Below are positions 27,232 to 59,242 of a stretch of DNA of 64,000 nt, one piece after another. Numbering within the stretch: the first letter of the stretch is position 1; the number at the start of each line of letters is the position of its first letter. Under the pieces are notes generated by a model. That model ran no database searches. It was not told the DNA's origin and was given only the letters and a program-made list of their open reading frames with translations. Location: the NCBI RefSeq assembly GCF_019740355.2, contig NZ_CP091819.1:3968001-4032000 (forward strand), in the 5' to 3' direction. Both the position numbers and the translations under genes were made by a program. Source of the stretch: Paracrocinitomix mangrovi. Its GTDB lineage: Bacteria; Bacteroidota; Bacteroidia; Flavobacteriales_D; Crocinitomicaceae.

Positions 27232-27275
27232 GTATCGTTATTGTGTATGATTTCGTACATCAAACAAAATGTAAG

Positions 27276-27743: not shown

Positions 27744-27757
27744 ATAAATTAATAACC

Positions 27758-27771
27758 TCCGTTATAACGGA
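27758..27771. other. Perfect 14-bp palindrome between DUF1573 genes
   Basis: TCCGTTATAACGGA is its own reverse complement and is followed by ATTTTAAA. It may act as a weak intercistronic hairpin or an operator; it has too short a T run and loop for a confident terminator. Confidence 0.4.
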
Positions 27772-27790
27772 ATTTTAAACCAAATAAGTA

Positions 27791-28222: not shown

Positions 28223-28225
28223 TTA

Positions 28226-33533: not shown

Positions 33534-36500
33534 ATGAAAGCTCTTTTGATCTTACTTTTTTTAAGTATTACTACATTCTCTTTTTCACAATATTCACCAG
33601 ACCCGGCTACCTTTCTTAAAGAAATAGATAAAACATTGTCCAAATCAGATAATGCTAAAACTAAAGTTTTCATGGAAGAGTTTGAACCCAATTGGCTAAC
33701 AAACTTTTCTTCTGAGTATCAAAATAGAGTTGTAAGCACATGTAACTTACTGGAAGCTAAAGGAAGACCTGCCTTTCCTGATATTTACGGATATTTGATT
33801 TCAGTTCACTCTTTCGTTAAATCTAATCAGCCTAAGACTAGCTTTGAAACATGGCACAAAACAATTGATGATCTTTTAAATAGTAAAAAGAGTACCAATT
33901 TTCAGACGTTTATTGAGTTTTGCGCCGACTTTTTTACAGATGGTACCATTCACAAGGAATTAAAGTATAAGTGGACATTCACAGGAGGACAATATCTTTT
34001 TGAGTTTGAAAATAATAGACCAAAAATCACTTTTTCTAATGGTGACTTAGGTTGTTATATGTTTGATTTAGGAGCAGGAAAAAAAGATAATCCATTTGCC
34101 GATAGTATGGTGGTATACAAAACTACTGGTGTGTTTGAACCTTTTGTTCATAGATTTACCGGTAGAGGAGGTGATATTACATGGTCCAGAACAGGCTTGG
34201 ATCCTGCCAAGAATTATGCTGAAATTACAGACTACAAACTTTCCTTAAAACAAACAAAATTAGAGTGTGATTCGGTTTTAATGCATACTGAATATTACGA
34301 GAAACCATTGTGGGGCGATTTAAAAGATTACTGTAAAATTTATAACCGAGAAATTGATAAAATTTATCCTTCATTTACCTCATTTAGTAAAGAAGTAGTT
34401 AGAAAAGACATTATTCCTGATGTAGATTATTTGGGAGGATTTGCGTTAGAAGCAGGTGATTTTGCCGGAATTGGGTTTGATAAAAATCCTGCCAAATTGG
34501 TTTTTAAGCAAAATGGAAAACCTTTTGTTACGGCTAGAGCATTAAGCTTTAAAATCAATGAAAAATCCATTAAGGCTAATGATTGTGAAGTGGTAATGTA
34601 CCTTAATGATAAAGATACTTTATATCATCCGGGATTACAGTTGATTTATGACGCAACAAGTACACCTAAGATAGAGTTTGTTAGAGCTAATTCAGGTTTA
34701 GGAATGGCTCCTTTCAAAAATTCATATCATGATTTGGATATGTATGTGGATGAGATCATCTGGACCAAGGGTGATCCAAATTTGAACTTTACCTGGAATC
34801 AAAGAGATAGACCCAACAAGGAAGCTAGATTTGAATCAAAAGATTTCTTCTCTGCAAGAGATTATCAAAGAATTCAAGGGATGAATAAGACGCATCCTTT
34901 GGCGGCTATTTATAATTATACCTACAAGTATGATATGCCAACTATTGCAGTGAATAAAATTGCTGGACCAATGGGATATACTACTGATCAGGCATTGCCA
35001 ATTTTATTGGATTTGGCTCAACAAGGATTTATAACCTATAATTCAAGCAGAAAAGAGATCACAGTTCAACCAAAAACAAAGAAGTATATAGATGCCAGGG
35101 CTGGAAAAGTTGATTATGATAACATTGTCTTTGTAGCCAATTTGGAGCAGATACCAATGAGGGACACGCTAACACCTGATGGTAGAAGAATAAAAGAAAA
35201 TGTAGAGTTTAACGACAGAGCAATCAAAATCAATGAGAGAAAGAAATTATCTACCAATTTTGGTTATCTGAATTTAACATCATTGGATTTGTCTTTGAAT
35301 GAAGTAGACCCTATTCCAATTTCACCTCTTCAAAATGTTGTTATTTTCCCGGGATCCGGAGAACTTTTGATTAAAGAAGAAATGGACTTTGTGTTTGAGG
35401 GTGCTATTATGGCCGGTAAATTAGAAGTTTACTTGAATGAAGCCTCTTTTGATAACGAGCAATTTAGAATCAATCTTATTGATGTAAAACAAGCAATGTT
35501 TAGAGTTAGGCCAATATATGGAGGAGAAGGTCTTATTGCAATGTATTCGCACTTTGAAGACATTTCAGGATACATTGAGGTTGATGATCCAAATAACAGA
35601 TCGGGTAAAAACAACAGGGATTTTCCTCAGTACCCAATTTTAAATTCAACTAAAGACTCTTACGTATTCTATGATCATTCGTATGTATATGATGGCGTTT
35701 ATGATAGTGTAGATTTCTATTTCAAAGCAGAGCCTTTTAAGTTTGATAGTTTGGACAATTTTGATGAGTACTCAATGTCTTTTGATGGAGAATTCAGATC
35801 AGCAGGAATTTTTCCAACATTCAAGGAGAAATTGACAATTCAGGAAGATTATTCATTCGGCTTTAAAACAAAAGCACCAGCTGGAGGTTTTGATTTTTAT
35901 GGCGATTATGCGAAGTTTGACAACGAAATTCGTTTGAGCAATGAGGGATTAAGAGGTGCCGGTCAAATAGATTTTGAAACTTCATCTTCTAAATCTGAAA
36001 ATTTTGTCTTTTTCCCGGATTCAACAATGGGATTATCAGAGTATGTGAACAGAGGGGAACCTACAAGTGCAGGGAAGCAAGTGCCGGATGTTACTTGTGG
36101 AGGTGCCATGGTAACATTTGTTCCTAAAGAAGAAATCTTGAAAGCACGTGCTTATTCTGAACCTTTAATGTTCTTCAATAAAGAAGCAGAAATGAAAGGT
36201 GTTACTTTCTTGACTAAAGGCGGAATGACTGGAAGAGGGTTGATGTACTTCAAAGAAGCCGAGCTTGGTTCATATAATTTTAATTACGGAAGATGGACCA
36301 TTGATGCCGATACCGCCGATTTTAACTTATTGGCAAAGGGGCAAGAAACAACAAATCCGAATGAAGAAAATCCATTGTCATTTGATTCTAGGAACTTGAA
36401 TGCGCATGTAGATTTTCAAGAAAGAAAAGGGGAATTTAAATCTAACGACGGAACTTCAATTGTTGAGTTTCCTAAAAACCAGTACATCTGTTTCATGGAC

Positions 36501-38162
36501 ATGTTTACGTGGTTAATGGATAATGATGAAATTGAACTATCTAAAAATGAAGATGCTGCTGATGTTAGCATAAACACTGAATTAGATTTAGCAGGCTCCA
36601 ATTTCTTCTCAATACATCCAGAGCAGGATTCATTGAATTTTAGTTCACCTAAAGCTAAGTTTGTGCTAAAAGAAAATGTCCTTTATTGCGATAAAGTGGA
36701 GTACATTGATGTTGCAGATGCTAGAATTTCTCCGCCTGATGGAAAAGTTACCATTAGGAAAAAAGCCAAAATGGATGAGTTTGAAGGAGCAGAAATATTG
36801 GCTAACTCAATTACTAAATTCCATAAAATTGTTGAAGCAAAAGTTAGGATAGATTCAAGGTTATTCTATCAAGCAAGTGGTAAGTATCCATATACAACAG
36901 ACAAAGGCTTTGAACAAATTATATTCTTTGCAGATATTAAACCTGATACGGTTTATACTACTACAGCAAAAGGAAGTGTAAAACAAGAAGAGAACTTTCA
37001 GTTAAGTGATCGATTTGGATTTTATGGGAATGTTGAACTAAACGCCTCTAACCAATTTTTAACTTTTGACGGAGCTACAAGAATTGTACATGATTGTGAT
37101 AAGTTTGCCAAAAACTGGCTTAAGTTTAGAACTGAGGTAGATCCGGCAAGCATACAAATTCCTGTAACAGGTGAAATGAAAGATTTAGAAGGGAATTCAA
37201 TTGCTGTTGGTATGGTAAGACGTAATGGTTCAGGAGATGACAGTTTAGACTTCTATCCAGCCTTTTTATCGGCAATGGAAAGACCAAATGACTTCCTTTT
37301 CTTTACTTCTTCGGGAGTATTGACATTTGTTGAGGATGCACAAGAATTCAGAATTGCTTCTCCAGAGAAACTAGAAAATAGGGCTGAAGCAGGTAATTAC
37401 CTGGCTCTTCATGTACAATCATGTTCAATGGAAGGTGAAGGATTGGTTGATTTCAACATGAATTTACCTGGAGTAGAATTTAAAACCTACGGAACAGTAG
37501 ATTACAATGCAAGTAAGGATATTGCTTCTTTCCATGTTTCCGGTGGTTTAGATGGTTGGCTAGATCCTAAAATGATTGAATTTATATCTGACGAAGTGGC
37601 TAGTACAGAAGGTTTAGGAACAGTTGATTTCAAACGTACAACTTTGAAAATGGCTATTACTGAAACTGCCGGTAAAGAAAAAGCAGAGTCAATTGAAGGG
37701 GATTACGCAATTGGGGGACCTGAAAAAGTCGGAAAACTTCCGAAGGAGATTGCAGATTACCCATTCTATTTCACAAATCTGAGATTTACTTGGAATAATC
37801 GAGCTTTAGGTTTAGTTTCTCAACCTATTACCGGGGTTGTTGCTATGAATGGAAAATCGCTTTTCAAAGACTTTACAGTTCAGTTAATGATACAGTATCA
37901 AGTTGAAGGAGGAGATTTTGGTACTAAACTAGGATTGATGATTCAATTACCTGGTGCAGAAGGTATGCCAGGTAACATTTACTTTATGAGTTTAGAAAAA
38001 ACCAAGAATATAACGAGAGCCTATATCTATTCTACGAATAAAGAAATGATGGCTTACTTGGGTGAATTAAAAGATGACAAACTCAAGAACAAAAAAGTGG
38101 AAATGATTCCTACTAAAAAAGCGAATCGTATGAGTATGTTCCAGTCTTTGGTTCCTAATTAA
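33534..38162 (+). CDS. Large exported protein of unknown function (1542 residues)
   Basis: This protein of 1542 residues has a clear signal peptide (MKALLILLFLSITTFSFS) and no other membrane helix. After about 250 residues of mixed helix, it is a long run of beta-rich segments with repeated patterns such as VFEGAIMAGKLEVYL, GRGLMYFKEAEL and FYGNVELNASNQF, which suggest stacked beta units in the style of a solenoid or bridge-like envelope protein. Around residues 1060-1120 a segment (ISPPDGKVTIRKKAKM) is reminiscent of LptA/OstA-type strands, but I cannot assign it. It is 25 bases after prmA and 11 before the small TPR gene, so it belongs with the TPR/giant protein locus. I do not recognise the family. 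Confidence 0.8.
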   Translation: MKALLILLFLSITTFSFSQYSPDPATFLKEIDKTLSKSDNAKTKVFMEEFEPNWLTNFSSEYQNRVVSTCNLLEAKGRPAFPDIYGYLISVHSFVKSNQPKTSFETWHKTIDDLLNSKKSTNFQTFIEFCADFFTDGTIHKELKYKWTFTGGQYLFEFENNRPKITFSNGDLGCYMFDLGAGKKDNPFADSMVVYKTTGVFEPFVHRFTGRGGDITWSRTGLDPAKNYAEITDYKLSLKQTKLECDSVLMHTEYYEKPLWGDLKDYCKIYNREIDKIYPSFTSFSKEVVRKDIIPDVDYLGGFALEAGDFAGIGFDKNPAKLVFKQNGKPFVTARALSFKINEKSIKANDCEVVMYLNDKDTLYHPGLQLIYDATSTPKIEFVRANSGLGMAPFKNSYHDLDMYVDEIIWTKGDPNLNFTWNQRDRPNKEARFESKDFFSARDYQRIQGMNKTHPLAAIYNYTYKYDMPTIAVNKIAGPMGYTTDQALPILLDLAQQGFITYNSSRKEITVQPKTKKYIDARAGKVDYDNIVFVANLEQIPMRDTLTPDGRRIKENVEFNDRAIKINERKKLSTNFGYLNLTSLDLSLNEVDPIPISPLQNVVIFPGSGELLIKEEMDFVFEGAIMAGKLEVYLNEASFDNEQFRINLIDVKQAMFRVRPIYGGEGLIAMYSHFEDISGYIEVDDPNNRSGKNNRDFPQYPILNSTKDSYVFYDHSYVYDGVYDSVDFYFKAEPFKFDSLDNFDEYSMSFDGEFRSAGIFPTFKEKLTIQEDYSFGFKTKAPAGGFDFYGDYAKFDNEIRLSNEGLRGAGQIDFETSSSKSENFVFFPDSTMGLSEYVNRGEPTSAGKQVPDVTCGGAMVTFVPKEEILKARAYSEPLMFFNKEAEMKGVTFLTKGGMTGRGLMYFKEAELGSYNFNYGRWTIDADTADFNLLAKGQETTNPNEENPLSFDSRNLNAHVDFQERKGEFKSNDGTSIVEFPKNQYICFMDMFTWLMDNDEIELSKNEDAADVSINTELDLAGSNFFSIHPEQDSLNFSSPKAKFVLKENVLYCDKVEYIDVADARISPPDGKVTIRKKAKMDEFEGAEILANSITKFHKIVEAKVRIDSRLFYQASGKYPYTTDKGFEQIIFFADIKPDTVYTTTAKGSVKQEENFQLSDRFGFYGNVELNASNQFLTFDGATRIVHDCDKFAKNWLKFRTEVDPASIQIPVTGEMKDLEGNSIAVGMVRRNGSGDDSLDFYPAFLSAMERPNDFLFFTSSGVLTFVEDAQEFRIASPEKLENRAEAGNYLALHVQSCSMEGEGLVDFNMNLPGVEFKTYGTVDYNASKDIASFHVSGGLDGWLDPKMIEFISDEVASTEGLGTVDFKRTTLKMAITETAGKEKAESIEGDYAIGGPEKVGKLPKEIADYPFYFTNLRFTWNNRALGLVSQPITGVVAMNGKSLFKDFTVQLMIQYQVEGGDFGTKLGLMIQLPGAEGMPGNIYFMSLEKTKNITRAYIYSTNKEMMAYLGELKDDKLKNKKVEMIPTKKANRMSMFQSLVPN

Positions 38163-38839: not shown

Positions 38840-41800
38840 GTGAGAATATTTTTGAAATCAATACCGGTTTTCATACTGCTATTTTTGTGCAGTAATAACG
38901 TCTTTGCTCAAACAGATGCTGAAAAGCGCGAGCGAGCAAATGAGTTATTTGATCAGGGATTATATCTCGACGCAACAAAGCTTTATGCAGGTTTACTAGC
39001 CAATAATCAAAAGGATCACGATCTCAGATTCAGGTATGGTGCATGTCTTATCTACTCTTCTCACAACAAGTCAGATGCAATCAATCACCTACTTTATTCT
39101 GTTTCCAGTCCTAGTATTGACAAAAGGGCTTATTACTTTCTTGGTAGGGCCTATCATCTCAATTACCAGTTCAAAGAAGCTGAAACTTATTACAAAAAGT
39201 TTCAAGAACAGGCTTCAACCAAGCAGAAGAAGGACTATAACGTAGATGCCCAGCTCACGGCTTGTAAGTTTGGTAGAAACCTCTTGAGCAAGGTTACCGA
39301 CATGATCGTCATGGAAAAAAGGGAAATTCCTGAGGAATCGTTCTATGACATTTACAACCATGAAGGAGTGGATGGGGATATATATAGGATTTCAACTGAT
39401 GATTTTCGTACAAAGGTTGATGAAAAAGCAAATCACAGACCGGTTATCTTCTTCCCTAAAAACACCAATGTTATTTATTATTCTAGTTATGGTGATAGTG
39501 AAGCAAATGGTTTAGATATCTATAGAGTTAAAAGATTACCGGATGGAACATTTTCAAAACCTTTACCGGTTGCAGGTCAGGTAAACTCACCTTTGGATGA
39601 AGACTATCCATATATGGATCCTAATGGACAATATCTCTATTTCTGTTCTAAAGGTCACAATTCAATGGGAGGATATGATGTTTTCAGATCTAAGTATGAT
39701 CCAAACTCTGATTCATTTGGTCCACCTGAGAATATGGATTTTGCTATTTCTTCTCCAGCAGATGATATCCTTTATATTGTTGATGCAGATGGTAAAGTTG
39801 CCAACTTTGCTTCTAATAGAGAAAGTAAAGATGGTAAAATTCATGTGTATGAAGTGAGGGTAGAAAGAATACCAATTCAGATTGCTGCGATTAAAGGAAA
39901 CTTTGTGAATGAAATAGTGCCTTCCAACAAAAATGTATCAATTGAAATCGAAGATTTTTCGTCCGGTAGAAGCATTGGAACTTTTAATTCAAGATCATCA
40001 GATGGAGATTACTTCATGACTTTTCCAAAAGGTGGAAAGTATAATTTTTACATCACCGTAAACGGGCAGGAAGAAACACATTATGTAACAGTTGATATTC
40101 CTATGTTAAAAGAGTTAAGACCTCTAAAACAAAGAATGTCGTTGGTGCGAGACGAAAATGGGGAGCAGGTAATTCACATAGATAACATGTTTGATGAATT
40201 GTTTGATGATCCTGTTACTGTAATGGCAGAGATATATCAAAACTTGTCTTTGCTTGAACCAAATTCAGAAGAGTTTGATATTGATTCTATTGAGCAGCAG
40301 TCTAATGTTAATCAGGTGTTTGTTGAAAATGGTCTGGATGAGTTTACAACCAAAGAAGAGTTGATCTTTGTAATGACTGAAGAAACCAAGAACATTGAGG
40401 AAGAAATTGAACAAGACAAAAAACTCTCTAATATCTCTTACAATCTGGCAGAAGAAAAGAGCAATGAAGCCAATCAAAAAATGCTGGAGGTTAATACCTT
40501 GATCGAGAAAGCAGAAAAATCTACCGATCCTAAAGAACAAAAAGCTTTATATGAAGAGGCTCATGAGTTAAACAAGAAAGTACAACAACTGAATGAAGAT
40601 GCTCAAAACCTTGTTGAACTTGGTAAGCAAATTGATTTAGCCATTGAAAATAAGAAAGGTAAGATCAAAAAATCAGAAGAGATTTTAACGGCTATAAAAT
40701 CTACACCTGAAGATGACAGAAATGCATTAGCGGCTGTAGTGATAGAAAATACAGACTTCTTTGTAGAAAACATTAAAGACCGTAAAAACAAACCTAATGT
40801 TGTAGAGCAAATATTGGTTGATGGTAATGAAGAAGTTAGGAAGGCCAATCAGATTAACTCTGAAATTGTTGATCTTTCAAACAAAAAACATCAGTTAGAA
40901 AAAGACAAACAAGTTCAAGAGTCGAAACTTGCGAATACTACTAAAAAGAAAGACAGAGAGCTAATAGAGAGTAAAATTCTGGATTTACAAAGTGAGATTA
41001 ACCTCCTGGATAATCAATTAAATCTTAAGCAGCAGGATTATGCAAAAGTTATTTCTAAAGATCAAAACAATTTAAACGGAGTTGCTGAGCAAGTTGTTAA
41101 TGATGATAGAAGTGGAGCGTCTCACAACATTGCATTATCATCTGAACAAAAATCTGATATTTCAAACAGGGTGCACCAAAATGATTTGTCTGAAAATGTT
41201 GCCTTGATTGATGAGCAATTAAAAGATAAAGGAGCAGGAGATAAGGCAGCATTATTTGCAAAAGACGAACAAAGACAAGCATATTCTCTAGAGCAATGGA
41301 CAGATGATATTGACAAGGAAATAGTGGATTTGAGATCTCAATTAAACACTGTTGCTCCTGAAAGAAAGCAAGAAATCATGCAGTTAATTGAGGATTTTGA
41401 GGATTTGAAAAAACAAAAAATCAAGGAGTTTGAGGTTGTTGAAGAAAATGAACTAACGGCAGATCAAAAGAATGATGTATTAAACATTATTGATGGAGAG
41501 TATCAGAATAAAGTCAATGACATTTATAAGATTGTTGATGAAGATGAGCGCAATAAAAAATTAAGAGACCTTAATGGAGTGATTTTGGCCAATACCAATG
41601 AGCAAATCCAAAACTATGACGCCATTCTTGAAAATGATCCAAACAACAGCAATGCAAAGAAAAAGCGTGATGAATTAATTGCATTTAGAGATGACCTTGA
41701 AAGAAATCAAGGTCAACCTATTGTTGAACCTGTGTTGATGGATGCTGCAAACATCTCAACTAAAGTAGAAGAAGATCAATTGGTTGATGATTATGCTAAT

Positions 41801-44800
41801 AAATTGAAAGCAATTGAGGCAATTGATGACGAGTATGATAGAAGAAAGCAGAAAAATGAATTGAACGGTCAGTTAATTTCTAGTGTTAGAAGTGAAATCA
41901 AACAATTGCAGCAAATTATTAAAGATGATCCTGACAATAAAAATGCTGAAAAGAGATTGGAAAATCTTAAAAAATTGGATGACAAAATCAACAGTGAAAT
42001 TGTTGCAGATGAAGATTGGTTAGCGGCTAACAAGTCAAACAATAATCAGCAAGTAGTTGTAGATGTTAACAATGTAAATCCTGATTACAATAATAAGGTC
42101 AACGAAATCAATCAAATAACGGATGATAAGGATCGTGAAAAAGCACTTCAGGACTTAAATAACAAGACATTGAATAATGTGAATGAAAGACTTATAGAAG
42201 TAAATAATTCACTTTCAAATGATCCTAATAACAAAGATCTTTTAGCTGAAAAACAAGGGTTAGAAAATCTTAGAAAGAACATTGAGGAGAATCCGGATGT
42301 TGCTGTCAAATCAAGTCAATCAGGGAATCAAATCAATACTAATCCAACGATTGAAGACATAATGCCTGGATATCAAGCTAAGCTGAATGGCATTGAAATG
42401 AACAATACTGATCCTGTCAAGATTGAAAGAGATAAAATTAAATTGAATGAAAATTTAATTTCAGCAATAGATCAAGAGTTGAGCAAATTAGATCAGCAAA
42501 AAGCAGAACAACCTGGATTGAGCTCGGATATTGAATTGCGCAAGAACAGCCTTTTCAATATGAAGGATGATGTGCAGAATCAAATTCGTGCTAGTAAGGA
42601 CATTATTGACGCTTCAAGTGGAAATATAAGTGTGAACACTAATCCTACCATTGATGAAATAATGCCTGATTACAACAGCAGGTTATCAAATATTAGATCC
42701 ACTAGTGCAGATCAGGTAGATGAAGAAGAAAAGAAAATATTACTGAATCAAAACCTAATCGGCAATATTGAGAAAGAGCAAAGTAGATTGGACAACCTTA
42801 AAGGTGATCATCCTGAATTGATAGCAGATATTGATAGCAGAAATAGTAAGCTAAATGATCTTAAGAAGGCTAAAATGGCCGAAATCAATGAGAGTAGAAA
42901 TGTTATTGACAGATCAAACAACGGTGGTGCAATCAGTATCAATACAAATCCTTCAGTTGAAGATATAATGCCGGGATACAATGCCAAAATTCAAGGTATT
43001 GATAAATCTGCTAAAGATCAGCCTACAAAAGAGAAAGAGCGCATTGCAGTTAACACTAATTTGATCGATAACATTGAGAATGAAATTGATAGATTACAAG
43101 GATTAAAAGCTGATAATCCTGAATTATCTAATGACATCTCACAAAGAGAAAGCAAGCTGAATGATTTAAAAGCGCAAGCCGAACAACAAATTGAAAATAG
43201 TAATCAATTGTTGGCTGGTAACAGAAACAATCAAGACATTGTAAGTAATCCACCTACAATTGACGAAGTAATGCCTGATTACCACAGTAGATTGAAGGAC
43301 ATTGAAGCTGCTAATAATACGCCTACAGATATTGAAAAAAATAGAATTGATTTGAATAACGAATTGATTCAAGCTATTGATAATGAGATAAAAGATCTGA
43401 ACAATTTATCTGACGAAAGACCTGAACTTAACGCAGATATTGAATTGAGAAAAAATGGCTTATATGATATCAAAGACAAGAAAATTCAAGAAAACCTAAG
43501 AAGTAAAGACATTGTTGACGCAGCTTCTAGCAAAATTGAGATTGATACAAATCCAAGTATTGATGATATTATGCCAGATTATAGCAGCAGATTAAAAGAC
43601 ATTAAGGCAAACACAACGGATAAAGTTGAACAAGAAGAAGACAAAATTGCTTTAAACCAAAGTTTGATAGGAAACATTGAAAATGAGCTTGATAGATTGC
43701 AGAACATAGAAGATAATAATGCAGATTTATCTAAGGATATTGAAAAAAGACGCAATAAGCTAAATGATATCAAACAGGATAAAATTGAAGAAATCAATGA
43801 GAGTCGCACTTACCTGGATGAGGCAAAAAATAACGGAAACTTAGCGGTAAATGCAAATCCTTCAATTGAAGAAATAATGCCTGAGTATGCAGACAAAATG
43901 TCTACTATAAAAGCGTCTGCAGATGATCCTATCACAAAAGAAAAAGATAAGTTAAATGTCAATAAAAGTTTGATCACCAATATTGATGCAGAACAAACAC
44001 GTTTAGATGAGTTGAAGAAAGATCATCCTAAGCTTTCATCTGACATTGATACCAGAAAGTTCAACCTTTCAAGCATGAGAGATGAAACGCAACAAAAAAT
44101 TCAACTTTCACAAGATATTATTGATGGCAATGTAGATGTCAACTCTTTAGTAGTAAATACTAATCCAACTATTGACGAGTTAATGCCTACATACAACAGT
44201 AGAAAAAACACCATTTCTAACAGTTCAAATTCCGGAGCTGATAAAGCAAAAGATCATATCAATTTAAATAATGAGTTGATTGGAATTATAGATACTGAAG
44301 TAGGCCGCTTAAATGATCTTAAGAAAACTAATCTGGATTTATCAGTAGATATTGAAGCAAGAAAAACTGCTTTGAGCAATATCAAGAATCAAAAAATAAG
44401 AGAAAATGAAGATAATGAATCTCTTGCTGATGGTGGAAATGTAAGAAATGCTGGAATCAATACTAATCCAACTATTGATGAAATAATGCCGGATTACAAT
44501 AGTAAGAATAATGCCATTAATAACAACTCTTCAAGTGAAGCAGAGAAAGCAAATGAACATATTAAGCTTAATAACCAGTTAATTGGAGCTATTGATGCAG
44601 AAATGACGCAGTTGGATCAATTAAAATCTTCCGACCCATCAAAAGCGGATGATATTGATAAAAGACAAGATGGTTTAAGAGATATTAAAAATCAAAAAGT
44701 TCAAGAAAACGAAAATTACCAAGAGCTTGCATTTGCCAATAATAACAACCTTACAATCAATACAAATCCTACCATTGATGAGGTAATGCCTGATTACAAT

Positions 44801-47800
44801 GAAAAAAGAAACAGCATTGATAATAGTTCTTCAACTTCATCTGAAAAAGCGCAGAAAAATATTCAGTTAAATAATCAATTAATCGGAACCATTGATACTG
44901 AAATAGGGCAACTTAATCAGTTGAAATCATTTAACCCTGATAAGGCATCAGACATTGAAAAAAGACAGGAGAGATTGACCGATATCAAAAATCAAAAGCA
45001 AAGTGAAAATGCATCATTAGAGGATATTGCAGGAACAAATAATATAGCTTCAATAAACACTAATCCAACTATTGAAGAATTAATGCCTGATTACAATGAT
45101 CGCATTTCATCATTGAATCAATTAAATGTTGATAAGGCAGATAAAGAAAAAGAACGCATCAATATCAATAAAACATTGATTGGTAAAATTGACAATGAAA
45201 TAAGTCAGTTGAATAGTCTTAAAGATGAACAACCGGGATTATCTGCAGATATCAATACCAGATTACAGAAGTTAAAAGATATCAAATCAAGTAAACAAAA
45301 TGAGATAGATGCAAGTCAAGATATTGTAGATGCTGCCGGAAATAATACTTCAGATGGAGGAAATAATCAAAACGGAACAGATGGCGCTAATAACCAAAAT
45401 GGAACGGATGGAGGAAATAATCAAAATGGAAGCAGTAATCCAAATGAGGCAGAAATTATTGCAATGAGTGAAATTCCTTCAATTGATGAGTTAGATCCTA
45501 ATTACAATGCTGACATGAATGCAATTAATGCTTCATCAGATGATAATGCAACTAAAGAGCGAAACAAAATAGAATTAAACAAAAGGTTAGTTCGCAGTAT
45601 TGATCAAGAAATCAAAAAGATGAATGGTCTGAAAGCTGATAACAAGGATTTCGTGTCTAAACTGGATAGAAGAATTGAAGGTCTCAATAATATGCGTTCG
45701 GCCAAGATGAATGAAATTAATGCATCTGAAGCCTTGGCAGGTACCTCAAACACAGATAACAATAGTGCTCAAAACAAGCGTCCTGATATTTCAATTGGAG
45801 CTTTAATGCCTACTTATGAAAATGAATTGAATGACATCAGAAGTAGTACAAATCTTCCGGAAAATGAAAAGATTGAAGAAGAGAATGGGTTACACAAAGA
45901 TCTGATTGATAAAATAGATAGTAAAATTCGTGACCTTCAAGATGAAAAATCTGCTAACCCAAGCTTGGCAACAACCATTGAATCTGAATTAAATCAGTTA
46001 GAAACGATTAAGGATCAAAAGCAATCTGAAATCAATAATAACAATGATCGTTTAGCTGCACTTGAAAATGAAATTGCTGAGAACAATACTAAAAACGCAG
46101 TAATCAATTTAACAGAAGATAATTACACTTCAGATGAAGGTAAAAATGTAGTAAAGAATCATCAAGATGACATTGATGATATCAAGTCATATCAAGATCA
46201 AATTGATGATTTGGATCAACAAATCGCCAACACAGATGATGAAGGAGAAAAGAATAAGTTGGTTAAGCAACGAAATAAGTTAGATGCCAAAAAAGCAGGA
46301 ATTGAAAATGAAGTATTAGAAGATTTAGAGACTGCCAATACTGCTGAGTTTAATCAAACAAGTCAAAATAGTGAAGTTGATGCAATAGTTGCTGAAGCCG
46401 GTAATCCAAATGATGAGGAGATTATTAAAGCAAATCAGGATATCGATCAGGCTAATAGATTGATGAGTGAGGCTAAAGATCTCAGAAATCAGGCAGCCAA
46501 TGAAAGTGATAAAATAGAGAAAAATAAGTTGCTTAAAGATGCTGTAGCTAAGGAAGAAGAAGCTAAAGATTTATTGACAAAAGCAGGACGTGTTTTAAAG
46601 GCAGCAAGAGTTGCTTATCACACAGGGAAACCTGAAGAAACAGTTGTTACAGAGGTGGCTGAAAATCCGGATAATAGAATGTCAACTCAGTTAATGGATC
46701 AGGCAAATGCATTAGAAGCACAAGCCAATGCTTATGAACAAAGAGCAACTGAATTGACAGATAGTGCAGCAACTGTTAAAAAGAAATATAAGCAAGCCGT
46801 ACTCAATGATGCAAGTTCAAATTCCCAAAAAGCAGCAGATTTAAGAGAAGAAGCAGCTAATCTTAGAAATCAGGCAAACAATATTAAGGCCCAGGAAGAT
46901 GATTTATTGGCAAATCAAATTGAACAATCTAACAAGAATCCTGATCAAGAAACGATCAATGATTTAGTAGGAACTGATGAGTATAAAGATTTCCATGCTG
47001 CCAACAAATCAGCCCAAGAAAACCTTGATAAAGCACAAGAATTAGAGGAGCAAATCAATGATCTTGAAAAAAGCAAACGAAGAAAAATCAAGAAAGGAAT
47101 TGTGAATTATATTGGCAATGATCCTAATTCTGTTGCAACTGATGATCCTGAAATTAAGGCAGATCAAGATAAAATTGATGAATTAAGAGCACAACAACAG
47201 CAATACATGGATCAGGCTAAAAATGATCTTAAAGCCGCAAATGATGCCTTAAATAATTCAGGTGAAAATGTTAAGGAAGACATGATTGCTATGTCTAACA
47301 ACAATATTGAGCCAAGAACAGTAATTAAAGTTCAACCTACTGATACTTTGGCGGCTGATTTTGAAGTTCCTGAAGTTGTAACTACAGATATTTTTAGAAC
47401 AACTGATAAACCGGTTTACAATGAGCAGAACAAAATTCCTGTTGACCAATCAACCAAAGGTTTAGTATACAAAGTTCAGGTTGGGGCATTTAGAAATCCT
47501 TTGCCACAAGATCACTTTAGACAATTTGCGCCAATTTCGGGTCAAAAGCTTACCAATGGAATTACGCGTTACATGGTTGGATATTTCTTAAAAGAGAATT
47601 CAGCTAATGGTGCTCGTTCTCAAATTAGAGGAATGGGTTATGGTGATGCATTTGTGGTGGCTTACTGTAACGGAGAACGTATTTCTATTGCGGAAGCAAG
47701 AGCCATTGAAGCAGGTGAATTAGAGTGTCCTGGAACAACATTAGATCAGCAGTTTGTAGTTGATAACAACACAACTGATAACAATGGAGGAAATCAAGGT

Positions 47801-49462
47801 AACAATACAGATAACAACGGAGGTACAGATAACAATGGTGGAAACCAAAATAACACAGCAGACAACAATCAAGGAAATAATCAAAATCAAGGAGGTAACA
47901 ATACTTACAATGATACTGATGGAGGAACAGTAAGACCAAATAATGAACAGGAAGCACAATTGACAAGCTATTACAACGATCCTAATGCGGCTAAAGCAAA
48001 TCAGGTAGAGATAGTAAAAGGTCTTTTCTTTACAGTTCAAATAGGTGTTTACTCTAAACCGGTAAAACCTGAAGTGTTGTACAATATTCAACCGTTAAAT
48101 AGTCAAAAACTTGATAATGGAACCATTAGATACTCTACGGGAATGTATTCAACTATTCCATCAGCAAATGTTAGAAAAGATCAAATCAGAACAATTGGTA
48201 TAGCAGATGCATTTGTAACGGCATATTACAATGGTAAGCGTATTTCTATTGCCGAAGCAAATCAATTATTAAGTGAAAAAGGAGAAGCTGTTTTATTTAA
48301 CTCGCCTGAAAATATTAGTGAGAATTTTGGAGGAAATGCAGTTTCTAACAACACAAATAACGATACTAATAATCAATCAAATAATCAAAACACCGATAAT
48401 CAAGGAAATAATGATGCGGTAAACAATAATCAGCAAACAAATAACCAGAATCAAAATCAAAACCAGAATCAGAATTATGATAACTCAGATGGTGGTGATG
48501 CGCAGGATAAAACGGTTGCTGCTATGAATATGCAAAATGATGAGCAATTCATCTTGAATGCAGAAGACAAAGGAGTTCCTTATAGAGTAAATCTTGGGTA
48601 CTTTGAAAATGGAATTACCGTCAACTTCCTTGACCTTTTATTAAATAATCAAGATGAAGGAATCATATCGGTGAGTGATATGGATGACCGTATTCTTTAT
48701 TATGTTGGTAATTATGATAATAAACCGGATGCTGAAGACAAGCGAGTTGAAATGGTGCAAAAAGGGTTTAAGGATGCCTACATTGTTACAGTTCCGCAAC
48801 CAAAAGAAGATATTGAAGAGGAGTTTTCATACTATAAAGAAGGAGTTTATTATCGAGTTAAACTTGGTAAGTTTAAAGGAGAAATGCCAGGTGAGTATGC
48901 AATGTTGTTGCTTCAAACTGATGGATTATTAGAGACGGAAGAAGACATTGAAGGAAGCACTTATTTATTGTCAAAGAAAGTGAATTCAATAGGAGAGGTT
49001 AAAGATTTATTGGTTGAATTTTCAGAAATGGGATTTGAAGAAATGCAGGTAATTTCATATTACCAATATGATGCTATTCCAATGGAAGAAGCTGATGCAA
49101 TTTTGAATGATACTAAAACAGGACCACTAAAAAGGTTTGAAGGTCATCAAGGAGTAAATGCAGATAAGTATTTATATGATAAAGAAGCCATTTACTTTAA
49201 AGTAGAAGTAGGAAGGTTTGATGACAAAATTCCATCAGAATTTACTAAATTGTTGTTGGAACATCCTGAAGACAATATTTACAACGAAGAAAACATTCAA
49301 GGTGAAACTATTTATTATTCAGATGATGTTAAATCATATGCAGAAGCTGAGCAATTAAAAGCTGAACTAATAGCACATGGTTTCAAGGATGCACAGATTA
49401 AGGCATTCCATAAATACACTGAGATTTCAGTGGAAAAGGCAAAGGAATTATTAAATAATTAA
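38840..49462 (+). CDS. Giant exported TPR-PD40-repeat-SPOR protein (about 3540 residues)
   Basis: I choose the GTG at 38840 (MRIFLKSIPVFILL) because it begins a clean signal peptide ending at VFAQ; no ATG is available, and the ATG at 38799 runs into a stop. Residues 25-150 are TPR-like; 195-340 are PD40 propeller motifs (YYSSYGDSEANGLDIYR, YLYFCSKGHNSMGGYDVF); 350-425 resemble a carboxypeptidase-regulatory domain. A charged coiled-coil region runs to about 880, then come about 15 helical repeats of roughly 100 residues (880-2420), more coiled coil, and five SPOR-like domains at about 2874-2955, 3055-3140, 3240-3317, 3330-3407 and 3447-3525. Three are separated by Asn/Gly/Gln-rich linkers. The front matches PorE-type T9SS accessory proteins, whose OmpA-type wall-binding end seems replaced here by SPOR domains. 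A peptidoglycan-anchored, long filamentous envelope protein is inferred. Confidence 0.85.
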   Translation: MRIFLKSIPVFILLFLCSNNVFAQTDAEKRERANELFDQGLYLDATKLYAGLLANNQKDHDLRFRYGACLIYSSHNKSDAINHLLYSVSSPSIDKRAYYFLGRAYHLNYQFKEAETYYKKFQEQASTKQKKDYNVDAQLTACKFGRNLLSKVTDMIVMEKREIPEESFYDIYNHEGVDGDIYRISTDDFRTKVDEKANHRPVIFFPKNTNVIYYSSYGDSEANGLDIYRVKRLPDGTFSKPLPVAGQVNSPLDEDYPYMDPNGQYLYFCSKGHNSMGGYDVFRSKYDPNSDSFGPPENMDFAISSPADDILYIVDADGKVANFASNRESKDGKIHVYEVRVERIPIQIAAIKGNFVNEIVPSNKNVSIEIEDFSSGRSIGTFNSRSSDGDYFMTFPKGGKYNFYITVNGQEETHYVTVDIPMLKELRPLKQRMSLVRDENGEQVIHIDNMFDELFDDPVTVMAEIYQNLSLLEPNSEEFDIDSIEQQSNVNQVFVENGLDEFTTKEELIFVMTEETKNIEEEIEQDKKLSNISYNLAEEKSNEANQKMLEVNTLIEKAEKSTDPKEQKALYEEAHELNKKVQQLNEDAQNLVELGKQIDLAIENKKGKIKKSEEILTAIKSTPEDDRNALAAVVIENTDFFVENIKDRKNKPNVVEQILVDGNEEVRKANQINSEIVDLSNKKHQLEKDKQVQESKLANTTKKKDRELIESKILDLQSEINLLDNQLNLKQQDYAKVISKDQNNLNGVAEQVVNDDRSGASHNIALSSEQKSDISNRVHQNDLSENVALIDEQLKDKGAGDKAALFAKDEQRQAYSLEQWTDDIDKEIVDLRSQLNTVAPERKQEIMQLIEDFEDLKKQKIKEFEVVEENELTADQKNDVLNIIDGEYQNKVNDIYKIVDEDERNKKLRDLNGVILANTNEQIQNYDAILENDPNNSNAKKKRDELIAFRDDLERNQGQPIVEPVLMDAANISTKVEEDQLVDDYANKLKAIEAIDDEYDRRKQKNELNGQLISSVRSEIKQLQQIIKDDPDNKNAEKRLENLKKLDDKINSEIVADEDWLAANKSNNNQQVVVDVNNVNPDYNNKVNEINQITDDKDREKALQDLNNKTLNNVNERLIEVNNSLSNDPNNKDLLAEKQGLENLRKNIEENPDVAVKSSQSGNQINTNPTIEDIMPGYQAKLNGIEMNNTDPVKIERDKIKLNENLISAIDQELSKLDQQKAEQPGLSSDIELRKNSLFNMKDDVQNQIRASKDIIDASSGNISVNTNPTIDEIMPDYNSRLSNIRSTSADQVDEEEKKILLNQNLIGNIEKEQSRLDNLKGDHPELIADIDSRNSKLNDLKKAKMAEINESRNVIDRSNNGGAISINTNPSVEDIMPGYNAKIQGIDKSAKDQPTKEKERIAVNTNLIDNIENEIDRLQGLKADNPELSNDISQRESKLNDLKAQAEQQIENSNQLLAGNRNNQDIVSNPPTIDEVMPDYHSRLKDIEAANNTPTDIEKNRIDLNNELIQAIDNEIKDLNNLSDERPELNADIELRKNGLYDIKDKKIQENLRSKDIVDAASSKIEIDTNPSIDDIMPDYSSRLKDIKANTTDKVEQEEDKIALNQSLIGNIENELDRLQNIEDNNADLSKDIEKRRNKLNDIKQDKIEEINESRTYLDEAKNNGNLAVNANPSIEEIMPEYADKMSTIKASADDPITKEKDKLNVNKSLITNIDAEQTRLDELKKDHPKLSSDIDTRKFNLSSMRDETQQKIQLSQDIIDGNVDVNSLVVNTNPTIDELMPTYNSRKNTISNSSNSGADKAKDHINLNNELIGIIDTEVGRLNDLKKTNLDLSVDIEARKTALSNIKNQKIRENEDNESLADGGNVRNAGINTNPTIDEIMPDYNSKNNAINNNSSSEAEKANEHIKLNNQLIGAIDAEMTQLDQLKSSDPSKADDIDKRQDGLRDIKNQKVQENENYQELAFANNNNLTINTNPTIDEVMPDYNEKRNSIDNSSSTSSEKAQKNIQLNNQLIGTIDTEIGQLNQLKSFNPDKASDIEKRQERLTDIKNQKQSENASLEDIAGTNNIASINTNPTIEELMPDYNDRISSLNQLNVDKADKEKERININKTLIGKIDNEISQLNSLKDEQPGLSADINTRLQKLKDIKSSKQNEIDASQDIVDAAGNNTSDGGNNQNGTDGANNQNGTDGGNNQNGSSNPNEAEIIAMSEIPSIDELDPNYNADMNAINASSDDNATKERNKIELNKRLVRSIDQEIKKMNGLKADNKDFVSKLDRRIEGLNNMRSAKMNEINASEALAGTSNTDNNSAQNKRPDISIGALMPTYENELNDIRSSTNLPENEKIEEENGLHKDLIDKIDSKIRDLQDEKSANPSLATTIESELNQLETIKDQKQSEINNNNDRLAALENEIAENNTKNAVINLTEDNYTSDEGKNVVKNHQDDIDDIKSYQDQIDDLDQQIANTDDEGEKNKLVKQRNKLDAKKAGIENEVLEDLETANTAEFNQTSQNSEVDAIVAEAGNPNDEEIIKANQDIDQANRLMSEAKDLRNQAANESDKIEKNKLLKDAVAKEEEAKDLLTKAGRVLKAARVAYHTGKPEETVVTEVAENPDNRMSTQLMDQANALEAQANAYEQRATELTDSAATVKKKYKQAVLNDASSNSQKAADLREEAANLRNQANNIKAQEDDLLANQIEQSNKNPDQETINDLVGTDEYKDFHAANKSAQENLDKAQELEEQINDLEKSKRRKIKKGIVNYIGNDPNSVATDDPEIKADQDKIDELRAQQQQYMDQAKNDLKAANDALNNSGENVKEDMIAMSNNNIEPRTVIKVQPTDTLAADFEVPEVVTTDIFRTTDKPVYNEQNKIPVDQSTKGLVYKVQVGAFRNPLPQDHFRQFAPISGQKLTNGITRYMVGYFLKENSANGARSQIRGMGYGDAFVVAYCNGERISIAEARAIEAGELECPGTTLDQQFVVDNNTTDNNGGNQGNNTDNNGGTDNNGGNQNNTADNNQGNNQNQGGNNTYNDTDGGTVRPNNEQEAQLTSYYNDPNAAKANQVEIVKGLFFTVQIGVYSKPVKPEVLYNIQPLNSQKLDNGTIRYSTGMYSTIPSANVRKDQIRTIGIADAFVTAYYNGKRISIAEANQLLSEKGEAVLFNSPENISENFGGNAVSNNTNNDTNNQSNNQNTDNQGNNDAVNNNQQTNNQNQNQNQNQNYDNSDGGDAQDKTVAAMNMQNDEQFILNAEDKGVPYRVNLGYFENGITVNFLDLLLNNQDEGIISVSDMDDRILYYVGNYDNKPDAEDKRVEMVQKGFKDAYIVTVPQPKEDIEEEFSYYKEGVYYRVKLGKFKGEMPGEYAMLLLQTDGLLETEEDIEGSTYLLSKKVNSIGEVKDLLVEFSEMGFEEMQVISYYQYDAIPMEEADAILNDTKTGPLKRFEGHQGVNADKYLYDKEAIYFKVEVGRFDDKIPSEFTKLLLEHPEDNIYNEENIQGETIYYSDDVKSYAEAEQLKAELIAHGFKDAQIKAFHKYTEISVEKAKELLNN
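41480..46090 (+). repeat. Tandem ~300-bp coding repeats in the giant gene
   Basis: Ten well-conserved units start at 42332, 42632, 42938, 43241, 43541, 43847, 44153, 44456, 44756 and 45053. Each begins with a NTNPTIDEIMPDYN-like block and ends in a charged helix. Three degenerate, shorter units precede them (about 41480-42330), and two diverged ones follow (about 45470-46090). Confidence 0.85.
45353..45433 (+). repeat. Three tandem 27-bp repeats encoding DGGNNQNGT linkers
   Basis: Units at 45353, 45380 and 45407 encode DGGNNQNGT, DGANNQNGT and DGGNNQNGS. They form a flexible linker between repeats 10 and 11 of the giant protein and are a likely site of length variation by slippage. Confidence 0.85.
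47761..48490 (+). repeat. Asn/Gly/Gln-rich low-complexity linkers between SPOR domains
   Basis: Two stretches, about 47761-47935 and 48340-48490, encode runs of N, G, Q, D and T (TDNNGGNQ, NQNQNQNQN). They flank the second SPOR-like domain and would be flexible spacers. They also create long false antisense frames. Confidence 0.8.
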
Positions 49463-52362: not shown

Positions 52363-55300
52363 ATGGAAAAGACGCTCTACATACTTAAAGACGATAAAGT
52401 CTCTGGGAAAGAATTGTCCAAGTTTTTGAAAAACAGGGGATTTAAAGTTGTAACTAATTCTTTTGATTCACAGGGTTTAACGGATCATATCACCCAGGAA
52501 AAACCAGATTTATTATTAATTGAAATCAATCTCGAAAATAGAGATCAAAGTATTGCTTTAATTGAACGATTGAATAAGAAAATTGAGCTTTCTATTCTGA
52601 TTCAAACTGCTGATTTCAATCTACTCGATACCTCTAAATTATTTAAAAATAATGTTTACGGAGTAGTTTCAAATGATGCTTCAGAAGAGGAATTGTGCGT
52701 TAATATTTCCATAGCTATTGAAAGACATGAAGAAGTTTGGCATAATAAATTTGATAAGTATTTTCTAAATGAAGCACAACGACTGGCAAATATTGGTCAT
52801 TGGAAGTTAGAAATACAATCTAATAGGTTAACATGGTCAGATGAAACGTATAGAATTTTTGGAAAAGAAATTGGAAATGAGATTGCAACTTATGAAGCTT
52901 TTTTAGACATAATTCATCCTGATGATAGAGAAAAAGTGAATGAGGCCTACTCAAATTCTTTAGTAACTAAACTACCTTATGAAATTGAGCACCGAATAGT
53001 AGTCAATGGTGAAATAAAGTATGTGGTAGAGAAATGTGAAACTTTTTATAATGATGATCAAGCGGTACTGTCAATTGGAACTGTTCAAGATATAACCCAG
53101 CGAAAAAATGTTGAATTAGAACTTATAAGAGGGAAAAATAGTTTTAGTGAGATATTTCAAAATTCCTCTGATGAAATCTATTTAGTTGATTCTAAAACGC
53201 TAGAGATTTTAGAAGCAAATTACGCCGCGGCTGAAAAATTAGGATACTCTCCCAATGAATTAATTGGGAAAAAAGTGTTTGAAATTGCAAATCCTGAAAT
53301 TGAATTTGACTTACTTGTCAAGCAACTTAGGGATTTACAATTAGGAGAATTGTATGAAGGTGAAGGAAGTCATGAAAACAAGACAGGATTGAAGTATCCT
53401 GTAAAAGTGAAAATTAAAAAAATCTGGATTGAAAGTGTTGAAGTACTTCTTGTGACTGCGGAAGATATTTCTGTAGAAAAAGCACTTAAAAAAAGGAAAC
53501 AGATTGAGTTTAAAACGCATGAAATAATCAATAGATTGCTTTCAATTACTGTTGTTTCAAAATCTATCGATCAATTTTTGGCACATGCTTTAGATGTGCT
53601 CTTAGAGTTACCATTTTTAGGTGATTTGGAAAAAGGAATTATTTTTTTAAAAGATGAAAATGGAAATTTGAAGCAAAGAGTTTCAAGGAATGTAGAAGAA
53701 GAAAAGATCAAAACTTGTGGTATAATTGGTAAGGGATCATGCGTTTGTCATAAAGTTTTAGAAACACAAAAATCTCAATTTGTTTGCTGTGATGTTAACG
53801 AACATGAATTCCCTGATTATACTGATCTTGACATTGTAAACTATAATGTGGCAATTACTCACCATGAAGAATTGTTGGGTTCTCTCTGTTTGTATTCTAA
53901 CATAAAAACTGATGGTAGAGAAAATATGGAATTGCTCAATACTATTGGTAAATCAGTAGGATTGATTTTGGTCCGATTTAGGGATCATAATAAAGTTCAG
54001 CAAAGTGAAAGTCGTTTTAGAGAATTGACAGAAACTTTGGATGAAGTTTTCTGGTTGGCAGATTGGGAGACAAAAAAAGAAATTTACATCAGTCCTTCAC
54101 ACAAAAAATTGTACGAGCAGGATATTGAACTGTTAATGGAGGATAACAACGCCTGGGAAAAAAGAATTCATCCTGATGATCTGGAAAGAGTAAGGAAAGA
54201 ATATTGGAACAATGTGATTTCCGGAAAGTATGATGTAGAGTTTAGGATTGTTATGGATGATGGGCGAATTAAATGGGTGCACGAAAGAGCTTATCCAATT
54301 TATGAAAATGGTGAAGTGGTTAGGATTGCGGGTTATGTGAGCAACATAACTGACAAAAAAGCAATGGAATTTGATCTTAAAGAAAGTGAAGAAAAGTACA
54401 GAACATATGTTGAAAATTCTGCTGACGTAATTAGTATTTCTGATGAACAGTTCAATTTGATTTTTAATTCACCGAATAATGAATATGTTTTTGGGTATGG
54501 TGCAGAAGAACATATTGGTGGAAATGTATCTAGTTTGGTGAATGTTGACGATAAGGAAACTTTAACGGAGGCTTTTAAGTGGCTTAAGAACAACAAAGGC
54601 GAACTTATTACTGTTGAGTATAGGTTTAAACATAAAAATGGAGAATGGATTTGGATTGAATCTACTATTAAGTATGTAGAAAAAAATTATACTGGTACTC
54701 CTTATTTTATTGTTAGTTCAAGAGATATAACTACTAGAAAAACAATTGCAGAAGATCTTATAAAAAGTGAGAAAAGATATAGAACCCTATATAATAATAA
54801 TGCAGCTGGATTGTATAGAATTGATGTGAATGGTAAAGTATTAGAATGCAATAATACTTTCGTGCAACAAATGGGTTTTGAAAAAAAATCACAATTGATT
54901 AATAAGAACATTTTTGATATAGTTGACTGTGATATTGACATCATTGCTGAGTTAGAAGCAAATAAGGGTGAGCTAAATTCCAAAGAAACAATGATGAGAT
55001 TGTTGGATGGTCGTGAAATTAGACTACTTCAAAATATTAAGCTAATCAAAGATGAAAATGGTAATAATATCTGCTTTGAGGGATCAACAATAGATACTAC
55101 AACATTGATGGAAGCGGAGAAGGCCAAGAAGTTAATTGAGGTAATTCCGGCTGAAAATCCAAATCCTGTTCTGAGAGTAGATTATAATATGAAGATCCTT
55201 TTTACCAATGAGTCTGCTGATGTTTTAGGGAGAAGAATTGTAGAAGACGGACACTTGAATTCTAGACGTTTGGTAAAGTTCTTGAAAGAATTTATTCCTT

Positions 55301-58376: not shown

Positions 58377-58489
58377 ATGTAGGTATTTGTACTTATATGT
58401 GTGCCATTCAGTACTCATGTAAATTGAGATTTTAAGCCAGTATTTAATTCAGTTACAACTTACTAGGTTTACAATTCACATTGGGAAGC

Positions 58490-59242
58490 GTGATAATATC
58501 TGTAGGTAATAGAAAAGGTGGTACCGGAAAAACTACCACTGTTGTGAATCTTGGTAGGGCATTGTCCTTAAAAGGCAAAAATGTGCTATTAGTTGATCTT
58601 GATCCTCAAGCAAATCTTAGTTATAGCTATGGAATTAGTACTGAGGGCTGTGTGCTAGGTGAAGTTCTTCTGGATAAACATATAGATTCAGGCTCTATAT
58701 TTTATAAGGATGGACTCGATCTGATACCTAGTAACACAGACCTCCAGGAGTATGAAGCTGAATTGATCAGGTCTAATGCACCTAAAACTGCATTGAAAGA
58801 GGCTTTAGAAGATGTAAAAGATCAATACGATTTTATCCTTATAGATTGCCCTCCAACTGCCTCACATTTAACTGTGAATGCACTTATGGCATCTGATGCA
58901 GTATTAATACCAATGTTGATGGAAAACCTTAGCCTGGTAGGTTTTGAACAAATGATTGATTTAGTCTTTGACATTAAAACTAAATATCATTCTGAGCTAT
59001 TTATTCTTGGTGTGGTAGGCGTTTTGGTTGATGAAAGAAGACACTTAACTACACAAATTTTAGAAGCCTTAAGAAGTAATTATGGAGTAGATGTATTCAA
59101 CAATTATGTCAGACAAAATGTAAAGGCAGCAGAAGCTCCGGCTAGTGGACAATCAGTAATTGATTATGCACCAACATCTAATAGTGCTAAAGATTACATA
59201 GCAATTGCAAATGAATTACTAAAAATATTGAATCAGAGCTGA
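58490..59242 (+). CDS. ParA/MinD-family ATPase of the chemotaxis cluster
   Basis: I take the GTG at 58490 (MIISVGNRKGG), giving 250 residues; a TTG at 58481 in the same frame is the alternative and there is no ATG. It has the deviant Walker A KGGTGKTT, VDLDPQANLS (A') and FILIDCPPTA (Walker B), so it is a ParA-type ATPase that can dimerise on nucleotide and bind DNA non-specifically. No parB follows. It sits at the head of a chemotaxis gene set, which recalls ParC-like ATPases that position chemotaxis arrays. That role is inference from location. Confidence 0.85.
   Translation: MIISVGNRKGGTGKTTTVVNLGRALSLKGKNVLLVDLDPQANLSYSYGISTEGCVLGEVLLDKHIDSGSIFYKDGLDLIPSNTDLQEYEAELIRSNAPKTALKEALEDVKDQYDFILIDCPPTASHLTVNALMASDAVLIPMLMENLSLVGFEQMIDLVFDIKTKYHSELFILGVVGVLVDERRHLTTQILEALRSNYGVDVFNNYVRQNVKAAEAPASGQSVIDYAPTSNSAKDYIAIANELLKILNQS

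Follow-up and report, generated by a model that had tools for sequence, protein, structure and literature searches.

What does a bacterium of the family Crocinitomicaceae do with an apparently exported protein of 3,540 residues that begins like a component of the type IX secretion system (T9SS) and ends in a series of SPOR-like units? The question is raised by a giant gene of Paracrocinitomix mangrovi lying in a stretch of 64,000 nucleotides (assembly GCF_019740355.2, contig NZ_CP091819.1, positions 3,968,001 to 4,032,000 of the forward strand), referred to here as the window. An earlier note on this DNA had described a front with the domain order of the T9SS protein PorE joined to 15 helical repeats and five SPOR-like domains, and had read the whole as a long, wall-bound spacer or filament of the envelope rather than a standard T9SS part. 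The description is confirmed in part and the interpretation is supported in part. The reading favoured here, to which about an even chance is given, is that the giant is a periplasmic, wall-anchored scaffold of the cell envelope.

The gene itself is a real single frame. It begins at one of two GTG codons (38807 or 38840), shows no internal stop codon from either of them to 49462 on the forward strand, and belongs to a genome that consists of a single contig of 4.37 Mb with a completeness of 99.97%. Its large size, together with four homologous frames that end early, could suggest that separate genes were fused by an assembly or reading-frame error. This explanation is refuted by the comparison with homologues and retains practically no probability: 89 distinct complete homologues of 1,640-3,129 aa (counted from 1,500 aa upwards, distinct by exact sequence, window excluded) show the same order of parts in a single frame in other assemblies, and 116 of the 134 best class matches listed lie in frames of at least 1,400 aa. 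Among these 134 matches, 104 are in frames of 1,700-2,600 aa, the median is 2,040 aa and the frame of the window is the longest.

The evidence for a link to the wall comes from the C-terminus. All five SPOR-like units that had been described are recovered by one hidden Markov model (HMM) seeded with units 1 and 2, and profile comparison relates units 1-2 to units 3-5 with a probability of 99.7%. They are not equivalent, since two are canonical and three derived, and only unit 1 passes the cut-off of the Pfam SPOR family (PF05036; 25.6 bits, cut-off 21); unit 3 stays below it (14.1 bits) and units 4 and 5 give no Pfam SPOR match at E<=1. Across the family, this Pfam model matches 24 of 41 unit-1 and unit-2 sequences at E<=0.01. 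Sequence searches of the PDB lead from both groups to the SPOR structure of CwlC (1x60; E 1.5e-4 with units 1-2 and 1.7e-4 with units 3-5). With units 3-5, pentatricopeptide designs rank above CwlC; their single stretches are weak, and they were set aside as repeated helical matches. In a structure prediction of the C-terminal part that includes helical segment II and the SPOR units (model B), unit 2 superposes on CwlC 1x60 over 69 residues (VIA-align Z 6.7, root-mean-square deviation (rmsd) 2.2 A) and on the RlpA SPOR domain soaked with denuded glycan (6i09, Z 6.0), with Z 5.8 for the structure 6i05. Unit 1 is modelled at a predicted local distance difference test score (pLDDT) of about 90 or more and has no VIA-align row listed.

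PMC6895207 reports that, of the FtsN surface residues altered in earlier work, no more than five mattered for localisation at the septum; Q251 and R285 belong to these five and are explained as glycan contacts. Denuded (peptide-stripped) glycan is described there as enriched at the septum. Alignment with Escherichia coli K-12 FtsN shows that units 1 and 2 of the giant keep the Gln and Arg equivalent to Q251 and R285, whereas in units 3-5 Asn, Lys or Glu replace the Gln and the Arg is absent. The same distinction is found across the homologues, where a QxGA motif occurs in 87 of 88 first SPOR units and the Gln in 88 of 88 second units, while third and later units carry it in a minority (16 QxGA, 4 QxGV and 1 QxGP). 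Judged by these residues, units 1 and 2 would bind denuded glycan, and units 3-5 may be derived SPOR folds devoid of canonical glycan binding that bind protein instead. The claim that the giant is wall-bound accordingly holds for units 1 and 2, by their contact residues and by the modest match of unit 2 to the SPOR fold, and does not extend to units 3-5.

SPOR units of this kind bring to mind a division regulator like FtsN or DamX, in which they would deliver the head to the septum to stimulate the synthesis or hydrolysis of the wall or the constriction of the outer membrane, the rod being no more than a long linker. The canonical glycan-contact residues of units 1 and 2 speak for it. The N-terminus, however, resembles a cleaved signal peptide and not a membrane anchor, 160 of 296 class genomes gave no match to the head (a provisional figure), no division gene was recognised among the neighbours by profile scans, and neither the size nor the variation in repeats is expected of a simple recruiter; this alternative is considered rather improbable, though it is the strongest of the competing ones. 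A surface fibre or adhesin crossing the outer membrane would account for the size, the repeats and the Asn/Gln-rich linkers between the SPOR units, which resemble those of surface fibres. It deserves very little belief, as the C-terminal end is made of SPOR-like units, which need wall glycan, and no T9SS C-terminal domain is found among the Pfam and NCBIfam matches of the giant at E<=0.01.

At the other end of the protein, the predicted signal peptide is followed by Gln24, which is invariant in the 62 rows of alignment A2 (61 of 65 relatives used); two of the 30 rows of alignment A1 (29 of 39 loci used; 24 of 47 in alignment A8) begin downstream of it. According to PMC5837995 and PMC10653852, signal peptidase I cleavage in Bacteroidetes follows a Q-rule by which a Gln is exposed, and Gln24 fits the prediction for this peptidase. 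No lipobox is present, the Cys at aa 17 lying outside any lipobox and not being conserved across A1. The three domains that follow were examined in a structure prediction of aa 1-1163 (model A, mean pLDDT 87). The TPR domain is well supported, with VIA-align scores up to Z 17.1 against TPR chains (rmsd 2.5 A, 119 residues) and 23.8 bits for the isolated segment in Pfam TPR_14 (cut-off 23.5). Foldseek with model A returned a single match at E<0.001, a Bacteroides adhesin with a query template modelling (TM) score of 0.08, which was dismissed as an artefact of the multi-domain query; VIA-align confirmed the TPR rows ranked below it. The PD40 signature is likewise supported, with 36.3 bits for the segment alone (cut-off 20.9) and a match in 28 of 30 heads, but the propeller proposed for it is weakly backed: Pfam recognises one PD40 repeat, DSSP of model A gives three predicted groups of three strands (aa 202-232, 254-287 and 309-340), and a PDB sequence search with the segment found no match at E<=0.1. 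The missing propeller rows in the VIA-align output are no test of this point, because the TPR domain fills the rows for model A. At the position of the carboxypeptidase-regulatory domain (CRD), an all-beta domain of seven strands is predicted, and Pfam CarboxypepD_reg matches 2 of 30 heads.

How far does this head justify a relation to PorE? PMC7192894 describes PorE (PG1058) as a T9SS lipoprotein of Porphyromonas gingivalis composed of TPR, propeller, CRD and OmpA_C, which span residues 25-668 from TPR to OmpA_C, the propeller taking residues 167-435 (269 residues). Like PorE, the giant presents a TPR domain followed by a PD40/WD40-type beta region and, where PorE has its CRD, an all-beta domain; unlike in PorE, the beta region has about 200 aa, there is neither a lipobox nor an OmpA domain (no match anywhere in the giant at E<=0.01), and a rod of 2,400 aa and the SPOR units are added. 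A PorE-like front is upheld as an order of domain types only. The giant reaches 69.1 bits against the PorE model NF052230 (T9SS_PorE), whose curated cut-off is 600. No protein of the genome passes that cut-off, the best reaching 437 and 436 bits; at least ten separate PorE-like frames are nevertheless present, and the two best (628 and 707 aa) carry OmpA domains.

By its sequence, the giant is not PorE, though its head may have a PorE-like function. It could still be a T9SS or gliding part, namely a PorE paralogue whose OmpA end was exchanged for the rod and the SPOR units and which anchors the secretion machine to the wall. The order of TPR, PD40 and CRD-position domains common to both proteins favours such an origin, as do the matches of the head parts to other frames of the same genome, PorE-like ones among them, at 21-40% identity. 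The gap between 69 and 600 bits, the at least ten PorE-like frames encoded separately and the lack of the lipobox that a lipoprotein such as PorE would have argue in the opposite direction. Of 43 neighbouring frames, 34 were scanned with Pfam, NCBIfam or both, and in none of these does a T9SS or gliding model exceed its cut-off. In addition, the T9SS marker SprA is found in 289 of the 296 class genomes and the giant head in 136, so the presence of a T9SS does not predict the giant, even if co-occurrence alone cannot exclude a T9SS link when SprA is nearly universal in the sample. The proposal that the giant is not a standard T9SS part is borne out by these results, and a role in secretion or gliding is regarded as unlikely.

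Between the head and the SPOR units, the protein is mostly helical from aa 458 to 2820 where it was modelled (aa 458-1150 and 2432-2820), and the stretch in between consists of the same repeats. The earlier figure of about 3,000 helical residues has to be lowered to about 2,400 (aa 458 to about 2820), to which the repeats contribute 1,540. Their number was correct: the iterated HMM finds fifteen at E 1e-20 to 1e-37, and the next candidate has E 0.03. Each of the modelled repeats (1-3) is predicted to form one short helix and two longer ones, and segment I contains consecutive predicted helices of 56 and 57 residues (aa 505-560 and 564-620). In NCBIfam, SMC-related and Rad50 models are matched by the whole protein far below their cut-offs; these matches fall in the helical region and were dismissed as coiled-coil noise. 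When the repeat profile was compared with PDB sequences, two weak matches were obtained, to a coiled-coil domain and to lamin (E 0.034 and 0.84). Tandem Repeats Finder detects no array of the repeat period in the DNA, from which it follows that the copies have diverged.

The behaviour of the repeats in evolution is informative with respect to a spacer. The congener of locus L087 has 16 repeats under the settings of this comparison, one more at the start than in the other count (15). Repeats 1, 2, 3, 13, 14 and 15 of the window all (6/6) find their best L087 match at the corresponding place, with 42-54% identity, whereas this holds for one of the nine inner repeats 4-12 (repeat 9). The tenth and fourteenth L087 repeats are the best match for seven of these nine, and seven of nine have a closer copy within their own protein, at up to 61% identity. 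Orthologous end repeats and turnover of inner ones fit the pattern of an array with fixed ends and a changing core, which supports a spacer, short of proof, and which rests on a single pair of species, the window and L087. The ratio of nonsynonymous to synonymous distances against L087 gave no estimate, the synonymous distance being saturated. A helix of 30 residues measures about 4.5 nm, and fifteen repeats laid end to end would be longer than a normal periplasm, so that the rod would have to fold back or lie along the wall. Considering the predicted helices and the comparison of repeats, a role of the rod as spacer or filament is plausible.

The family to which the giant belongs is broad and variable. 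In a search with the head, 49 of 59 genomes (own included) give a match at E<=1e-30, and one of these, G033, has a frame of 785 aa only. The head profile at E<=1e-60 identifies 122 of 145 order genomes (completeness >=97%) and 136 of 296 class genomes (completeness >=95%), again with the own genome included. Among named relatives, the heads most similar to that of the giant come from Crocinitomicaceae, namely the metagenome-assembled genome Bin_13 (68% identity) and entries of Crocinitomix and Fluviicola (46-51%). Crocinitomix catalasitica and Fluviicola chungangensis, which are in culture, are both carriers of the giant. A plasmid search gave four records with distant partial matches. The detailed set is biased to near relatives, because naming was confined to the best 80 of at least 586 loci. 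Two SPOR units are present in 35 of the 89 complete homologues, three in 41, four in 7, five in 5 and none in one (L163). Recognised repeats range from 0 to 10 at E<1e-3, with none in 59 of the 89, a count in which the repeat HMM of the window may overlook repeats of distant rods; together with the 15 repeats of the congener (L048/L087, clipped by a contig end) and the 15 of the window, this range shows homologues that vary in the number of recognised repeats.

Some frames were kept apart from these counts. Among 119 frames, 21 are open at a contig end and were left out, and four complete head-bearing frames below 1,500 aa, which end early at 250-1,083 aa (L086, L088, L122 and L125), were dropped. 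L088, L122 and L125 end at 655-1,083 aa inside contigs and may be broken genes, errors or short forms. In L086 (G048:C1:254818-256157) the head is divided over two frames that overlap by a few bases, one of 278 aa and one of 2,094 aa that contributes its start, the result of a frameshift or a sequencing error. In G083, G086, G199, G244, G259, G277, G308, G339 and others, a further frame of about 970-1,010 aa bears a head in addition to the giant.

The positions of the features described so far and of the two genes that precede the giant are collected in Table 1. The more conspicuous of the latter encodes an exported protein of 1,542 aa for which searches of Pfam and NCBIfam (E<=0.01) and of the PDB (E<=0.1) gave no match, and whose mean column identity over 25 aligned sequences is 46%. 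Of the distinct loci, 94 offer 5.5 kb or more of sequence upstream of the giant, and 73 of these have a homologue of about 1,500 aa immediately before it; 17 further loci were too short for this test. The protein is present in 134 of the 136 genomes with a giant head (Fisher p 8e-15; related genomes are not independent). The smaller gene encodes a TPR protein with 27% identity to aa 10-152 of the giant, which is present in two congeners too. In this genus it occupies the place that an acyltransferase-like gene takes elsewhere: in 78 distinct loci with the pair adjacent, the interval holds an acyltransferase-like gene in 51, a gap below 200 bases in 23, a TPR gene in 2 and neither in 2. The acyltransferase-like genes were counted by a sequence motif, and one (L093) was checked by Pfam as PF02660, glycerol-3-phosphate acyltransferase; it shares 4 bases with the first gene, and 31 bases separate its end from the giant. 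Downstream, DUF2807 and exonuclease VII are not conserved, among the tabulated loci the former occurring in L049 only and the latter in none. Elsewhere in the window, three consecutive DUF1573 genes are found at 27243-28603. A 911-aa protein (59439-62174) contains three PAS stretches, and its C-terminus matches methyl-accepting chemotaxis proteins below the cut-off; next to it are PAS histidine kinases (52363-57661) and a ParA-like ATPase (58481-59242). A chemotaxis-type receptor seems unusual for this bacterial group.

Table 1. Parts of the giant gene and the two genes upstream of it (positions in the window)
Feature	Residues	Position	Strand	Basis
1,542-aa exported protein, likely partner		33534..38162	+	Conserved immediately upstream of the giant
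Small exported TPR protein, 152 aa		38165..38623	+	Paralogue of the giant's TPR head
Giant gene	3,540 aa counted from 38840	38807/38840..49462	+	Uninterrupted single open reading frame
Predicted signal peptide, then Gln24	1-23	38840..38908	+	Sequence; no lipobox
TPR domain	26-150	38915..39289	+	Model A helices 26-150; VIA-align; Pfam TPR_14
PD40-type beta region	157-357	39308..39910	+	Pfam PD40; DSSP of model A
All-beta domain, seven strands, CRD position	366-450	39935..40189	+	Model A, pLDDT above 90
Helical segment I	458-870	40211..41449	+	Model A
Fifteen helical repeats, about 100 aa each	875-2413	41462..46078	+	Iterated HMM; model A for repeats 1-3
Helical segment II	2415-2820	46082..47299	+	Model B
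SPOR unit 1, canonical (VQVGAF ... TRYMVG)		47453..47698	+	Pfam SPOR; FtsN alignment
SPOR unit 2, canonical (VQIGVY ... IRYSTG)		48014..48259	+	Own HMM; VIA-align
SPOR-like unit 3, degenerate (VNLGYF)		48572..48799	+	HMM; low-confidence model; Pfam SPOR sub-threshold
SPOR-like unit 4, degenerate (VKLGKF)		48842..49099	+	HMM, profile comparison, FtsN alignment
SPOR-like unit 5, degenerate (VEVGRF)		49184..49441	+	HMM, profile comparison, FtsN alignment

Under the reading of a wall-anchored periplasmic scaffold, the giant would leave the cytoplasm through Sec and lose its signal peptide to signal peptidase I, and SPOR units 1 and 2 would hold it to the wall through peptide-stripped glycan, as made at the division site. 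The head with its TPR, PD40 and CRD-like domains would bind at least one other protein, perhaps the co-encoded one of about 1,500 aa or a component of the outer membrane. The helical rod would separate this head from the wall anchor, its length being adjusted as inner repeats are gained or lost. Units 3-5 would have lost canonical glycan binding and could bind protein. The site of action would probably be where glycan is denuded, at division. The evidence itself covers the single frame with its export signal, the order of parts, the repeats, the kept contact residues and the conserved neighbour, and from these the periplasmic location, glycan binding, partner and spacer role are deduced.

Several observations weigh against this picture. 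Unit 2, canonical in its residues, has no Pfam SPOR match at E<=1, and its match to the SPOR fold is modest, with Z 6-7, a range (Z<8) that may reflect a common arrangement only; on the same stretch, the exported non-SPOR protein 6ozd scores Z 6.8. Model B is weak overall (pLDDT 72, predicted TM score 0.36), and Foldseek with model B alone returned no significant match. Placement at the septum is itself something that we infer. The giant head was not detected in 160 of the 296 class genomes, absences that are provisional because five candidates per genome were scored. The link to the protein of about 1,500 aa is confounded by phylogeny, this protein being more widespread than the giant (239 of 296 class genomes), and 21 of the 94 loci lack the adjoining gene.

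A bolder version of the scaffold would make these proteins a class-wide family of periplasmic "rulers", whose tail grips the wall, whose head docks on a partner, either in the outer membrane or the protein of about 1,500 aa, and whose repeat number sets distance or slack; it is put forward as a speculation with a small chance of being right. Such rulers would govern slack or distance in the Bacteroidota envelope, for example during constriction of the outer membrane, in the manner of titin or spectrin in other systems. If the scaffold is real, many members of the class would bear, besides OmpA-type tethers, a wall-bound protein 5-11 times the length of E. coli FtsN, and its gene would often adjoin that of a conserved exported protein belonging to no known family. 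This would offer a handle on how Bacteroidota link wall, outer membrane and division, as well as a natural series of repeat numbers for asking whether the length of the rod matters. The strongly conserved 1,542-aa upstream protein may merit a study of its own. Among the entries listed by literature searches outside subscription journals and preprints, no publication describes the giant family.

Among known systems, Staphylococcus Ebh and spacers of the spectrin and titin type also consist of tandem helical repeats of about 100 residues in variable copy number. The likeness to them would be one of architecture; no sequence relation of the giant repeats was found, the PDB search giving the two weak matches mentioned above. 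With FtsN, DedD, RlpA and CwlC, units 1 and 2 of the giant have in common the sequence pattern of SPOR domains and the two residues, Gln and Arg, that contact denuded glycan. Known SPOR proteins carry one SPOR domain as a rule. Unlike FtsN, DedD, RlpA and CwlC, the giant ends in two canonical and three degenerate units, and at 3,540 aa its length is elevenfold that of E. coli FtsN (319 aa).

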